From positions 1 through 39,356 of IMG/VR virus record IMGVR_UViG_3300013014_001806: DNA of 39,356 bases, one strand, 5' to 3'. This document shows, in pieces, positions 12,320 to 24,084 of the stretch. The notes beneath the pieces were generated by a model, which saw only the letters and a list, made by a program, of their open reading frames with translations, did no database searches and was not told the origin of the DNA. Each line of letters starts with the position of its first letter. Within the stretch, counting starts at the first letter, position 1. Source of the DNA: a virus. Both the position numbers and the translations under genes were made by a program.

Positions 12320-14104
12320 ATGTGGAGAATAGTTATTAACATTAAAGATGGTGCAATTGCTTTATTAAAAAACGGTAATTTACAGTTTTTTCTTCAAGAA
12401 GAACGATTATCCAAATTTAAATATGATGATAGCCCGTATTTAGCAATGAAAGTAATATCGGAGTACTTAGAGAAGCAAAATTTATCAGTTTCACCAACAA
12501 TTATAATTACGGGGGCAAAAAAATACTATGAAATTCAACCCACTTTACATAATATAAATAAACTCGTTAAACATAAGTCTGTTCCAAGAATGTCGTGGAC
12601 AGGAGAAAATCCCTATTGTTCTATTATGAGAAAAAAAATTAAGGATTATCTACCTTGGGCAGATGTAGAAGATGATGTAATTAAAATTAATCAACACTTT
12701 TCTAGTGCAGCAACGGGCTTCATGCATTCACCCTTTAGTGATTCAGCAATAATTGTAGTTGATTCTTTTGGAAATGGTTTTGACTGTCATAGATACGCAA
12801 ATTATTTGAAGGAACAGGATAATATACCTGTAGATATATTAGTAAACGATACTTGGGAATTAGAATCAATATGGCGTATACATGCAGATAAATTTACCAA
12901 ATATTATTCTAATTACGGAAGTAATACGATTAATTCAAAAGGTACCATCATCAATGATGAAGTTATATCAGAAATTTCTAATAATGCCGGTATTATTAAA
13001 TCATTTGAAGCGGTAAATAATTTTTTAAATTTTCATCATAATGATATAACAAAAACAATGTTTCTGTCAGCATATGGTAAAGAAAATTCACGCATCGTAG
13101 TTAATAATAGTTTATTAAACAATAGCAAATTAATAAAAACAGAATTTCCAAAATCTAGCACTATAGTAGAAAATTATGATAATGAATTATTTAAAAACAT
13201 ACATGATCATTCGTGGCACGACGATCCTAATTTAATGGATGAGTATAAAAAAGATTTAGCATATGCTGTTCAAGAATCTGCTTTTTCTAGATTATGTAAC
13301 CTTATTGAAAAAACAAAGGATCTTACTGGTAGTAATAACATTACAATCACAGGAAAAATTAATTATAACTATAGGATTAATTACAGAATTTTAAAAAAAT
13401 TCCCACATATCACCTTTTATCATGACATATTTAGTCATTTTGGTGGAGATTTTTTTGGCAGCTTTTCTCAAAATATGGAACCAATAGAAAGCCTATATTT
13501 AGGTCCCAACATTGATAATTATTATGTGGATCAATCTTTTGATGGGTTTACATTGATTGACACCTCATCATCTGAAGTCGCAAAATTAATTACCAATGGA
13601 AATATTGTTGCACTTTTCCAAGGTAGAAGTGAAGTTGGACCCAATGCATTAGGAAATAGAAGTATACTATTTGATCCTACAATATCAAATGGTAGAAAAA
13701 TACTTAGTAAATTAAAAAACAAAAAATGGTTTGAAAGTTATTCGGCAAGTTGCCTTTTAGACTATACTCATGATTGGTTCGATTTGGCTGGGTTAGCAGA
13801 GTCACCTTTCATGATGTATGCGGTAGATGTATTAGAAGATAAAAAAACTCTTATTCCTAACATTGTGCATTATGATGGTTCATGTTTACTTCAAACCGTT
13901 ACGCACAATCAAAATTCAAATTTATATGATTTACTAGTAGAATTTAATAAAATTAAAAATGTTCCTATACTATTAAACACCGGGTTTCATCTAGAAAATG
14001 CACCTTTAGTAGAGACATTGAAAGATGCTATTTTTACAATAGAAAAATTAGATATAAATTATTTATGGCTACCTGATATTAATAAGTTGGCTATTAAGAA
14101 GTAA
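12320..14104 (+). CDS. Carbamoyltransferase paralogue with degenerate active site (probable pseudoenzyme)
   Basis: 594 residues, collinear with the next gene over its whole length and so a tandem duplicate. It keeps the fold markers EERLSKFKYD, GNRSILFDP, SPFMMYAVDVLEDKK and the NT.F loop. The residues expected to hold the catalytic iron in the Kae1-like domain are changed: the HxxxH pair is Q125 and S129, and the later aspartate of SHDGG is F374. The GHNGS loop reads IKDGA, GGYGLN reads GKINYN, GPRALG reads GPNALG (N442) and RPF reads ESY. The frame is intact with no stops, so it is not a decaying gene. It could be a structural or regulatory partner of the active copy. Confidence 0.85.
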   Translation: MWRIVINIKDGAIALLKNGNLQFFLQEERLSKFKYDDSPYLAMKVISEYLEKQNLSVSPTIIITGAKKYYEIQPTLHNINKLVKHKSVPRMSWTGENPYCSIMRKKIKDYLPWADVEDDVIKINQHFSSAATGFMHSPFSDSAIIVVDSFGNGFDCHRYANYLKEQDNIPVDILVNDTWELESIWRIHADKFTKYYSNYGSNTINSKGTIINDEVISEISNNAGIIKSFEAVNNFLNFHHNDITKTMFLSAYGKENSRIVVNNSLLNNSKLIKTEFPKSSTIVENYDNELFKNIHDHSWHDDPNLMDEYKKDLAYAVQESAFSRLCNLIEKTKDLTGSNNITITGKINYNYRINYRILKKFPHITFYHDIFSHFGGDFFGSFSQNMEPIESLYLGPNIDNYYVDQSFDGFTLIDTSSSEVAKLITNGNIVALFQGRSEVGPNALGNRSILFDPTISNGRKILSKLKNKKWFESYSASCLLDYTHDWFDLAGLAESPFMMYAVDVLEDKKTLIPNIVHYDGSCLLQTVTHNQNSNLYDLLVEFNKIKNVPILLNTGFHLENAPLVETLKDAIFTIEKLDINYLWLPDINKLAIKK

Positions 14105-14126
14105 ATAATAATTAATTGGGGAATTT

Positions 14127-15890
14127 ATGTGGGTATTAGGATTAAATATAGGTCATAATGGATCAGTAGCTCTTTACAATGATGCTAATTTGATATTTTA
14201 TGTTGAAGAAGAAAGATTAACAAAAGTTAAGTATGACGGTCATCCTATAGCAGGCATAGATGCTGCATATAAATACACAGATCACCTTGATATGGTTATA
14301 GTATGTGCTACTAGAAATGATTTCTCAACACAGTATGATGATGTATATAGAAAAACTATAAGAAAAAAACAACCATATCATGATTTTCAATATATTGAAG
14401 CAGGACATGATCATCATTCCGTTCATGCTGCATGTGCGTTTTATAACTCCGGGTTTGATTCTGCCGCTGCATTAATAATAGATGGTGCAGGAAGTTTTGC
14501 ATATCAATCAGTTAATAATACATTATTTGATCAATATATAAGTCCAGAAATTTCAGATGCCAAAGAGATTAAAGAAGAAATCTTTAATTTGCTTTCAAGT
14601 GATACTTGGGAAGTTGAATCAATATGGTCTTGTGACTATGCTTCAACGATAAAAAGACACTATGCTAGCTACGGCACAAATCAACTAAAAGATAGTCGGC
14701 ATATAGCTGAAGATGGAGCGATAGTAGAGATTTCAATGTCACATGGCATTGTTAAAAGTTATGAAGCGGTTACAACATTTTTAGGGTTTCATGATATAGA
14801 AGCTGGAAAAACTATGGGTCTTTCTTCTTATGGGAAGTTTAACCCGTACATACCTATATGCGACGGTAGACTTAATAATTTAGATTTTATTATTCCAAAT
14901 TTTCCATGTGGAAACAGAATTAAAGTGGAAGCAAGTGCCGAAGCAAAAAAATATTCAGAAAACAATTCAGCTTGGCACCGTAACCCTAATTTAGTGGGTC
15001 AATATAGAAAAGATATAGCATATGCTGTTCAAAAATCATCGGAAAATCGAGTCATTGATCTTATTGAAAAAACCCTTGAAATAACTAAAAAAAATAAAAT
15101 CGTTATGGCTGGAGGATATGGCCTTAACTGTGTTGCCAATTATAGATTCTTAAAAAGATTTCCAAATATACAATTTTATCATGAGCCCATAAGTCATGAT
15201 GGGGGTCAATCCATGGGCGCCTGTCAACTTTATTATAGAAAATTTACAGGAGATACTACCAAAACTCCACTAAAAAGTTTATATATCGGACCTGATATTA
15301 GCATAAACTATGAAAAAGTCAACTACACAGGCTTTAACTTAACTGATGCTACTTCAAAAGAAGTGGCTGAACTAATCGCAAAAGAAAATATTGTTGCATT
15401 GTATCAAGGTAGAAGTGAAGCGGGACCCCGTGCATTGGGAAATCGTAGTATACTATTCGATCCAACAGTTAAAGACGGAAAAGATTTAGTCAATAGAGTA
15501 AAAAAACGGGAATGGTTCAGACCATTTGCAGGATCATGTTTAGCTGAATCCGTACATGATTGGTTCGATATGGCTGGGTTAAAAGAGTCCCCATTCATGA
15601 TGTATGCTGTAGATGTATTAGAAGATAAAAAAGATATTATACCATCAATTACCCATGTGGATGGTACTTGCAGAATTCAAACAGTCACTAGTGAACAAAA
15701 TCCCCACTACTATGAATTAATTTCCGAATTTAATAAAATAAGAAATGTGCCCATTTTGTTCAACACTAGTTTTAACTTAGGGGGAGATCCTCTAGTAGAA
15801 ACAATGGAAGATGCACTGTCTACCCTAAGAAGGTCAGATATTAAATATTTATGGTTACCTGAGATAAAAAAACTAGTTACAAAATTTTAA
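14127..15890 (+). CDS. NodU/CmcH/TobZ-family carbamoyltransferase, active-site complete
   Basis: 587 residues. These enzymes move a carbamoyl group from carbamoyl phosphate through carbamoyl-AMP to a hydroxyl of a sugar, antibiotic or, in some phages, hydroxymethylcytosine. The Kae1-like N-terminal domain has GHNGSVAL, EEERLTKVKYDG, HHSVHAACAFYNSGF with H96 and H100 as iron ligands, IIDGAG, GGYGLN and SHDGG with D358. The YrdC-like C-terminal domain has GRSEAGPRALGNRSILFDP, FRPFAGS and NTSFNLGGDP. It lies 22 nt after its degenerate paralogue with GGGGA as ribosome site. The acceptor is unknown; a glycan or a DNA base are both reasonable. Confidence 0.92.
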   Translation: MWVLGLNIGHNGSVALYNDANLIFYVEEERLTKVKYDGHPIAGIDAAYKYTDHLDMVIVCATRNDFSTQYDDVYRKTIRKKQPYHDFQYIEAGHDHHSVHAACAFYNSGFDSAAALIIDGAGSFAYQSVNNTLFDQYISPEISDAKEIKEEIFNLLSSDTWEVESIWSCDYASTIKRHYASYGTNQLKDSRHIAEDGAIVEISMSHGIVKSYEAVTTFLGFHDIEAGKTMGLSSYGKFNPYIPICDGRLNNLDFIIPNFPCGNRIKVEASAEAKKYSENNSAWHRNPNLVGQYRKDIAYAVQKSSENRVIDLIEKTLEITKKNKIVMAGGYGLNCVANYRFLKRFPNIQFYHEPISHDGGQSMGACQLYYRKFTGDTTKTPLKSLYIGPDISINYEKVNYTGFNLTDATSKEVAELIAKENIVALYQGRSEAGPRALGNRSILFDPTVKDGKDLVNRVKKREWFRPFAGSCLAESVHDWFDMAGLKESPFMMYAVDVLEDKKDIIPSITHVDGTCRIQTVTSEQNPHYYELISEFNKIRNVPILFNTSFNLGGDPLVETMEDALSTLRRSDIKYLWLPEIKKLVTKF

Positions 15891-16142: not shown

Positions 16143-16703
16143 ATGTCTGTACTAGCGTTAGACATTTCAGGAGTTCCAAGACAATGGATCTCTTATGATA
16201 ATGCGATTGCTTATCATGCCAAAAATGGTGTTGCATGGAGTTTAGGTGATATTGTTGCTAGATATCGTGGAGGTATTCAAGCAAATGGTGTTCAAAGTTA
16301 TCTTGAAACACCTAGTATTATCGCTGTAAAAGGTCATGGGTTTGATCCAAATAAACATTCAAAAGTATCATTATGCAACAGAACTCTATTCGGGCGTGAT
16401 AGAAATATATGTGCTTATTGCGGTGATTATTTCAATAACTTTTCTTCACTAAGTAGAGATCACATTGTACCAAGAAGTCGCGGTGGTATGAATAGTTGGA
16501 TGAATCTGGTGACTTCATGTAGAGATTGTAACGCTGACAAAGGTAACAAAACTCTGAAAGAAGCTAGAATGGAATTGCTGTACCTTCCATATGAACCATC
16601 ACACTTTGAAAATATGATTCTACAAAATCGTAATATTTTAGCCGATCAGATGGATTATTTACGTGCAGGATTACCAAAACATAGTAGAATTTTATTAAGT
16701 TAG
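16143..16703 (+). CDS. HNH endonuclease
   Basis: 186 residues. The HNH core is at about residues 80-142: NICAYCGDYF (first zinc pair), LSRDHIVPRSRGG with the catalytic histidine, and NLVTSCRDCNADKGNKTL (second zinc pair). This compact form is common in free-standing phage homing enzymes. An N-terminal region (1-78) of unknown type may recognise DNA. AAAAGGAAA is the ribosome site. It lies just before the first tRNA gene and is one of four HNH genes within 6.7 kb. Confidence 0.9.
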   Translation: MSVLALDISGVPRQWISYDNAIAYHAKNGVAWSLGDIVARYRGGIQANGVQSYLETPSIIAVKGHGFDPNKHSKVSLCNRTLFGRDRNICAYCGDYFNNFSSLSRDHIVPRSRGGMNSWMNLVTSCRDCNADKGNKTLKEARMELLYLPYEPSHFENMILQNRNILADQMDYLRAGLPKHSRILLS

Positions 16704-16727: not shown

Positions 16728-16801
16728 GCCCTTTTAGTTAAATGGTATAACAGTTGATTTGTAATCATCAATTGGCAGTTCGATTCTGTCAAGGGGCACC
16801 A
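16728..16801 (+). tRNA. tRNA-Thr(TGT)
   Basis: Cloverleaf with acceptor GCCCTTT against AAGGGGC, anticodon loop TTTGTAA and T arm GGCAG-TTCGATT-CTGTC. CCA is encoded. One T-T mismatch lies in the anticodon stem. It is 24 nt after the HNH stop. Confidence 0.92.
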
Positions 16802-17765: not shown

Positions 17766-17851
17766 GGAGCAGAAGCATCAATGGTGATGCAGTGGATTGT
17801 AAATCCGCCGTCTTTATGGCACGCCTGGTTCGATCCCAGGATGCTCCACCA
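17766..17851 (+). tRNA. tRNA-Tyr(GTA)
   Basis: Class II tRNA with a long variable arm (about 15 nt), D arm GCAT/ATGC, anticodon stem GTGGA/TCCGC, loop TTGTAAA, and T arm CCTGG-TTCGATC-CCAGG. Discriminator A and encoded CCA. The seventh acceptor pair is mismatched. Confidence 0.9.
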
Positions 17852-22030: not shown

Positions 22031-22059
22031 TTGACAAATAATTAGGTGTCATGTACAAT
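22031..22059 (+). promoter_or_regulatory. Sigma70 promoter for the HNH/tRNA-Leu transcript
   Basis: TTGACA at 22031-22036, 17-nt spacing, TACAAT at 22054-22059, directly after the hydrolase stop. The palindrome ATGTATACAT follows the -10 as at 17489. Confidence 0.78.
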
Positions 22060-22100: not shown

Positions 22101-22130
22101 GTAGTTTTTAAGTTAAAATTTGTCTTTACC

Positions 22131-22138
22131 GATAAATA
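22131..22138 (+). promoter_or_regulatory. Late promoter-like box GATAAATA
   Basis: Seven of eight positions match TATAAATA, 19 nt before the HNH ATG, with AACAGGAG between. It would give late expression in addition to the sigma70 promoter at 22031. Confidence 0.4.
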
Positions 22139-22157
22139 CTCATAACAGGAGAACATC

Positions 22158-22784
22158 ATGTTATGTGATTATGGATGTGGTAAAGCCGCAAATTTTATGC
22201 TTAAGAATGGTAAAAATTGTTGTAGTAAAAGACCGGCAGGTTGCGAAGTTTTGAAAAAAATCAATTCTGAGAAAACTAAATTGTCGTATACTACTAACAA
22301 AAGACTTGCGGCAACAACAGTGTATAACCGGTTACCGCAGGAAACTAAAGATAGAATGAATTGGGCTAAAGGTCAAAAATTGACTCCCAATGAATTAATC
22401 TTTACTGAAAATAGTTTATATGCTAACGAAATGGTTAAAGGCAGAATTGTTAAAGACAATTTGTTAGAGTATAAATGTGTAAAGTGCGGTATTGATAGTT
22501 GGTGCGGAGAAACCATTGTTCTTGATCTAGATCACATAAACGGTGACAACCGTGATAATAGGATTGAGAATTTACGGTATCTGTGCCCTAACTGTCATAG
22601 CCAAACTGATACATACAAAGGTAGAAATAAAAATAGTGGAAAACTAAAAGTAACTGACCAAGAGCTATTGACAGCATATGAAAAATGTAGTAACATTAGA
22701 CAAGCGTTGATAGAAGTAGGTCTTGCTGCTAAAGGTGGAAACTACGAAAGATTAAAACGATTAATTGCCCGGGTGGTGAAATAG
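22158..22784 (+). CDS. HNH endonuclease overlapping the intron-containing tRNA-Leu
   Basis: 208 residues. An N-terminal zinc module (CDYGCGKAANF, CCSKRPAGC; residues 3-30) is followed by a linker (about 40-100), an HNH core at about 106-160 (YKCVKCGID, LDLDHINGDNRDNRIENLRYLCPNCHS) and a C-terminal helix-turn-helix (NIRQALIEVGLAAKGGNYERLKRLI). CAGGAGAACATC is the ribosome site. Its last codons and stop are formed by the first 18 bases of the tRNA-Leu gene, whose group I intron begins 17 bases further on. This fits an endonuclease that promotes spread of the intron or of itself. Confidence 0.92.
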   Translation: MLCDYGCGKAANFMLKNGKNCCSKRPAGCEVLKKINSEKTKLSYTTNKRLAATTVYNRLPQETKDRMNWAKGQKLTPNELIFTENSLYANEMVKGRIVKDNLLEYKCVKCGIDSWCGETIVLDLDHINGDNRDNRIENLRYLCPNCHSQTDTYKGRNKNSGKLKVTDQELLTAYEKCSNIRQALIEVGLAAKGGNYERLKRLIARVVK

Positions 22785-23064
22785 GTAGACACAAGAGACT
22801 TGAGAATAAAATTTGAGTGCCTTTAGGGAAATCTAAAGAGTAGAACCCGTCAAATTCGGTGAAAGCTGTAAAATGCTAATACCGAGCGAAGCCTAAGTAG
22901 AAATACTTTTGAACGTGTAGAGACTAGACGGCGGGCATCTAAGGTATCAATACTATGATGAAGGTATAGTCCAGACCACAAACTGAAAGGGTAGTGAAAA
23001 CTATAGTGGTAAGAAAATCTCTCGCTCACAAGGCATGCCGGTTCGAGTCCGGCTTCGGGCACCA
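22767..23064 (+). tRNA. tRNA-Leu(TAA) interrupted by a group I intron
   Basis: Exon 1 is 22767-22801 and exon 2 is 23014-23064. Removing 22802-23013 gives an 86-nt class II leucine tRNA: acceptor GCCCGGG/TTCGGGC with two G-T pairs, anticodon stem AGAGA/TCTCT with loop CTTAAAA (anticodon TAA), T arm GCCGG-TTCGAGT-CCGGC, discriminator A and encoded CCA. The body closely resembles E. coli tRNA-Leu(UAA). Without splicing, the loop would read TGA and the 3' half would not pair. The splice position, after U34, is the same as in cyanobacterial and plastid tRNA-Leu introns. Confidence 0.93.
22802..23013 (+). ncRNA. Group I self-splicing intron (212 nt)
   Basis: Core elements in order: a P/Q pair (AATTCGGTGAAAGC, then AATACCGAGCGAAGCC), an R element (GTGTAGAGACTAGACGG at about 22915-22931) and an S element (AAGGTATAGTCCAGACC at about 22961-22977). 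P1 is seen as exon ACTT plus intron GAG pairing with TTTGAGT, with the required U-G wobble at the 5' splice site. The intron ends in G23013. It carries no open reading frame. The HNH gene ends 17 bases before it. Confidence 0.93.
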
Positions 23065-24001: not shown

Positions 24002-24084
24002 GCCCCGGTGGCTAGTGGAAATTGGTACACCTAATGGTCTTAGAAGCCATGCTTTTCCCGGTTCGAGTCCGGGCTGGGGCACCA
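24002..24084 (+). tRNA. tRNA-Leu(TAG)
   Basis: Class II tRNA with acceptor GCCCCGG/CTGGGGC, anticodon stem ATGGT/GCCAT with loop CTTAGAA, short variable arm, T arm CCCGG-TTCGAGT-CCGGG and encoded CCA. Unlike the TAA isoacceptor it has no intron. Confidence 0.92.

Follow-up and report, generated by a model that had tools for sequence, protein, structure and literature searches.

How a phage obtains a functional leucine tRNA from a gene that is interrupted within its anticodon, and how the interrupting sequence came to lie there, are the questions raised by the tRNA-Leu(UAA) locus analyzed here. Since 1990, group I introns of tRNA genes have served as a model for how old introns are and how they are transferred. 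The window, by which we mean the whole 39,356-nucleotide stretch of virus record IMGVR_UViG_3300013014_001806, carries phage genes, for example those for NrdA, NrdB and tail-fibre or baseplate proteins. Its tRNA-Leu(UAA) gene very probably harbors an ORF-less group I ribozyme that is predicted to splice itself out and that belongs to intron lineages mobile among anticodon loops whose 5′ half ends in CUU.

With introns allowed, ARAGORN calls tRNA-Leu(taa) at 22767-23064 with a 212-nt intron starting from tRNA position 36, a gene missed when the program is run without introns. The call agrees to the base with the original prediction, made from the sequence, of a split tRNA-Leu(UAA), and the spliced exons form the complete cloverleaf with anticodon TAA that had been anticipated. 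The proposed insertion after U34, between U34 and A35, is likewise supported. The intron was delimited by its terminal G at 23013 and, on the 5′ side, by the rule of a U-G pair, and no long ORF lies within it, the longest being 43 codons. The parts of the gene are as follows.

22767-22801, + strand: 5′ exon of tRNA-Leu(UAA), ending at U34 (ARAGORN and reading of the sequence)
22802-23013, + strand: group I intron, 212 nt, with terminal G (RF00028 63.6 bits, covariation)
23014-23064, + strand: 3′ exon of tRNA-Leu(UAA), from A35 to CCA (ARAGORN and reading of the sequence)

An intronless tRNA-Leu in EBPR podovirus 3 is identical at 47/48 positions over the first spliced bases of the window tRNA and matches the splice junction, so that the joined form is present in another phage.

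The assignment to group I, for which the original prediction had pointed to R and S core strings, a U-G wobble in P1 and a terminal G, is borne out by covariance search. In cmscan, RF00028 matches 22798-22995 over the full model (1-253) with 63.6 bits and E 5.1e-14, relative to a gathering cut-off of 50, and all of the named elements are located in the window, with R at 22915-22931 and S at 22961-22972. The secondary structure was evaluated in an alignment of 32 phage tRNA-Leu introns, each less than 85% identical to any other, and its main helices are listed here.

22798-22818, + strand: P1, exon ACUU (22798-22801) with GAGU (22815-22818), U-G at the 5′ splice site
22821-22838, + strand: P2 with a GAAA loop, compensatory change in 7/7 pairs
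22846-22935, + strand: P3, enclosing P4-P6, 22846-22851 with 22930-22935, compensatory change in 4/6 pairs, 100% of cells paired
22922-22971, + strand: P7, the guanosine site, in a pseudoknot with P3, 22922-22926 with 22967-22971, 5/5 pairs invariant in 32 sequences
22975-23010, + strand: P9, 22975-22979 with 23006-23010, compensatory change in 3/5 pairs
22992-23003, + strand: inner hairpin of P9 with a GAAA loop, compensatory change in 4/4 stem pairs

In P1 the C-G, U-A and U-G pairs are invariant across the 32 phage introns, with U-G in 32/32, and since the parser demanded a U before the intron and a G at its end, U and G counts over multiple loci, here and below, are not independent. The complete P1-P9 model with the P3/P7 pseudoknot comprises 57 pairs, 36 of them with compensatory changes, and 94.6% of cells are paired; covariation over the same 32 introns is 0.453, whereas shuffled controls reach 0.143 and slid pairings do not exceed 0.103. 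RNAalifold alone recovers P2-P5, P8 and P9, the pseudoknot being beyond its reach, and the register of P3 adopted here is that of RNAalifold, which covaries. A tRNA-linked core pattern gave 1 real match and 0 in 100 shuffles, which together with the strong covariation across relatives excludes chance. Rfam provides one general group I model; at the level of subgroup, the small P6 and the GAAA loops of P2 and P9 are at most suggestive of IC3.

In the proposed mechanism transcription of the tRNA cluster would yield a pre-tRNA whose intron folds into P1-P9, and a guanosine bound in P7 would be used for the cut after U34. Ligation of U34 to A35, past the terminal G of the intron, would then produce a tRNA that reads UUA and UUG codons. 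We infer that this reaction takes place in infected cells, and the earlier expectation that splicing would be required to yield tRNA-Leu is supported. UUA accounts for 272/590 leucine codons in the larger genes of the window, and the spliced tRNA would therefore be useful. A dead intron, the gene being a tRNA pseudogene or one in which splicing has been lost, has an unremarkable fold energy in its favor: the minimum free energy of the single intron sequence is not lower than that of shuffles (z -1.2), a measure that by itself decides little. However, the core and both exons are intact, compensatory changes occur throughout the intron family, and the codon demand matches the product. The closest intron among the matches listed, in the related phage contig L120, is 98% identical and likewise flanked by intact exons. 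Loss of function is thus very improbable, and a self-splicing intron is the reading pursued below.

Other features of the window deserve mention. A long-armed tRNA at 17766-17848, probably Tyr (anticodon GTA), is missed by ARAGORN and scores a weak 33 bits with Rfam, and is about 91% conserved in related contigs. A tRNA-like gene with an odd loop at 24002-24084, for which ARAGORN gives the anticodon 'aa', resembles tRNA-Leu(UAG) by eye and has an unusual D arm. Two NolO-like carbamoyltransferase genes lie in tandem at 12320-15890.

Group I introns are widespread in phage tRNA genes, a matter on which the original prediction was silent. A pattern scan of IMG/VR for an intron core joined to a T-loop returned at least 119 stretches. 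The viral set assembled from these loci, the window and two named phages, with both splice sites parsed and tRNA assignments ranked on canonical anticodon loops, contains at least 106 assignable introns, distributed as Leu(UAA) 93, Arg(UCU) 5, Lys(UUU) 3, Lys(CUU) 2, Thr(UGU) 2 and Met 1. Among the matches listed, the Leu(UAA) introns lie after U34 in 93/93 cases and the 5′ exon ends in CUU in 103/106, the final U being required by the parser. The named carriers are Agrobacterium phage Atu_ph07, whose tRNA-Leu is unannotated and overlapped by a hypothetical protein, and the 735-kb huge phage LR756501, and several of the tRNA introns belong to jumbo phages. Standard tRNA searches miss such intron-bearing genes, jumbo phages providing examples, and their recognition corrects tRNA counts. 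In bacterial genomes the same scan found mostly alphaproteobacterial introns, chiefly in Leu(UAA) and Arg(CCU).

Several individual loci extend this picture in other directions. A 281-kb phage contig (L057, 3526-5058) has group I introns in adjacent tRNA-Arg(UCU) and tRNA-Leu(UAA) genes and a third, weaker group I match in another tRNA. The E. coli IncI plasmid CP142529 (L244, 4995-5291) has, close to aac(3)-IId and IS26, a tRNA-like gene with an intron, a setting in which a group I intron of this type would not be expected. In Pelagibacter phage HTVC120P (L003, 1501-1655) a sequence 74% like the window intron lies between two capsid-annotated ORFs, so that the lineage of the window intron may also occupy protein genes. 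Pseudoalteromonas phage pYD6-A (L446, 1144-1391 and 1717-1973) has two unannotated group I introns above the Rfam cut-off.

The original prediction left open whether the position of the intron reflects shared ancestry or repeated insertion at a favored site, and the phylogeny favors the second. In a tree of 209 columns with unsettled bootstraps, built from phage and mainly proteobacterial introns, the window intron groups exclusively with phage introns, in a clade of 20 (support 99/91) made up of 16 Leu introns, two from Lys(UUU) and two from Thr(UGU). The hypothesis that every Leu-34 intron belongs to one clade is rejected (AU p 0.014), and the corresponding hypothesis for the viral introns is not (p 0.062); a group of just those 16 Leu introns is also rejected (p 0.029), in a test picked after the tree was seen. 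The mixture of three tRNA kinds in one clade, together with the rejection of a Leu-34 clade, favors repeated insertion or movement from loop to loop. Phage lineages would have moved between loops in which the 5′ exon ends in CUU, the target of the intron's guide GAG, and movement of this kind, mostly within phages, appears to fit the tree better than inheritance at one site. Phages, in whose tRNA genes such introns are widespread, are a candidate vehicle for tRNA introns.

Vertical descent, or one transfer, from a tRNA-Leu intron of cyanobacteria or other bacteria, with retention at the same site ever since, would account for the coincidence of gene and position with the introns of cyanobacteria and plastids, a shared site that the original prediction had noted and with which the literature agrees. 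The same pattern scan also identified 61 introns at Leu U34 in bacteria, for the most part alphaproteobacteria. Against such a history, the Leu-34 introns do not form one clade, a result obtained among phage and mainly proteobacterial introns. In addition, phage introns cluster across tRNA kinds, and the bacterial intron closest to that of the window is 66% identical among the matches listed. Taken together we consider inheritance at a single site improbable, and movement among CUU loops the preferred account of origin.

A second element overlaps the gene, one that the original prediction did not mention: an HNH gene whose stop codon lies inside tRNA-Leu, with an overlap of 18 nt.

22031-22059, + strand: sigma-70-like promoter TTGACA-17-TACAAT (consensus match only)
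22101-22766, + strand: HNH cassette, missing at the matching place in L120
22158-22784, + strand: free-standing HNH endonuclease, 208 aa (PHROG 10822 E 1e-34, Pfam HNH_3), with relatives that abut tRNA genes

The HNH gene sits between promoter and tRNA. In L120 this upstream DNA, promoter included, directly joins the tRNA, with the intron present and the HNH absent there, a continuity that identifies the HNH gene as inserted DNA. Its relatives lie directly against tRNAs of many kinds, and the closest adjoin intronless tRNA-Leu(UAA). Elsewhere in the window a second HNH gene (16143-16703, Pfam HNH_5) lies directly before tRNA-Thr at 16728.

The proximity of nuclease and intron raises the question of collaborative homing, in which the HNH would cut intronless tRNA-Leu, repair would copy the HNH together with the nearby intron, and the intron would shield its own tRNA. 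This would be an addition to the splicing account and no replacement for it. Among the matches listed, 21/84 tRNA-Leu genes with an intron have an HNH gene within 0.9 kb upstream, and 1/95 of those that lack one do (p 6e-7); the association persists when similar flanks are removed (10/53 and 1/87, p 2.6e-4) and in tRNA-rich non-redundant loci (7/26 and 0/28, p 0.0037), in comparisons where the arm GACTTAAAATC was required of intronless genes and phage relatedness was controlled only in part. The HNH match ends at one identical tRNA base in 17 loci, and free-standing nuclease F-CphI with the psbA intron provides a precedent (PMC6083498). Against this, HNH relatives also stand beside intronless tRNA-Leu (L246-L249 and others) and beside other tRNAs, and the 98% identical intron of L120 lacks the HNH at that place. 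Distances between HNH genes do not correlate significantly with those between introns (r 0.25, p 0.13), whereas intron and exon distances do correlate (r 0.66, p 0.004). Altered anticodon arms were sought in intronless genes beside HNH genes and the outcome was mixed, several retaining GACTTAAAATC. Since HNH and intron are each also found alone, collaborative homing is a reasonable hypothesis rather than a result, and on balance we lean against it. Somewhat more doubtful still is the broader proposal that the HNH family 5′ of phage tRNAs and the anticodon-loop intron family cooperate in homing, by which introns would be disseminated in phage populations along with tRNA alleles. The arrangement of HNH, intron and tRNA allows collaborative homing at a tRNA gene to be tested directly.

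Comparison with known systems places the self-splicing phage intron in context. A 2014 review located all phage introns known until then in protein genes, despite the many tRNA genes of phages (PMC3984707), a view that the widespread phage tRNA introns revise; the window intron has ribozyme class and phage host in common with those introns and differs in residing in a tRNA. No account of phage tRNAs with group I introns was found in the full-text literature, subscription papers and bioRxiv being largely outside this scope. Introns in phage tRNA genes were first reported from Lak megaphages by Devoto 2019 (PMC6784885), where they were called enigmatic and, unlike the intron described here, were left unclassified in the main text. 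That they are of the same kind is unsupported by RF00028, which has one match in Lak-A1, adjoining a protein gene and outside the tRNAs, and none in a scan of Lak-A2. The F-CphI nuclease of cyanophage S-PM2 similarly stands free beside an intron-bearing phage gene; here the intron lies in a tRNA gene, and its neighbor is a putative homing nuclease of the HNH type that also occurs without the intron. Introns in proteobacterial tRNA-Leu(UAA) and tRNA-Arg(CCU) have similar core motifs, and those in Leu lie mostly after U34, but their identity to the window intron reaches at most 66% among the matches listed and they occupy mostly separate branches of the tree. The closest parallel in gene and position is provided by the small group I introns inserted at the UAA anticodon of tRNA-Leu in cyanobacteria and plastids (PMC5733544), from which the intron described here differs in residing in a phage and in belonging to the same lineage as introns of phage tRNA-Lys and tRNA-Thr.
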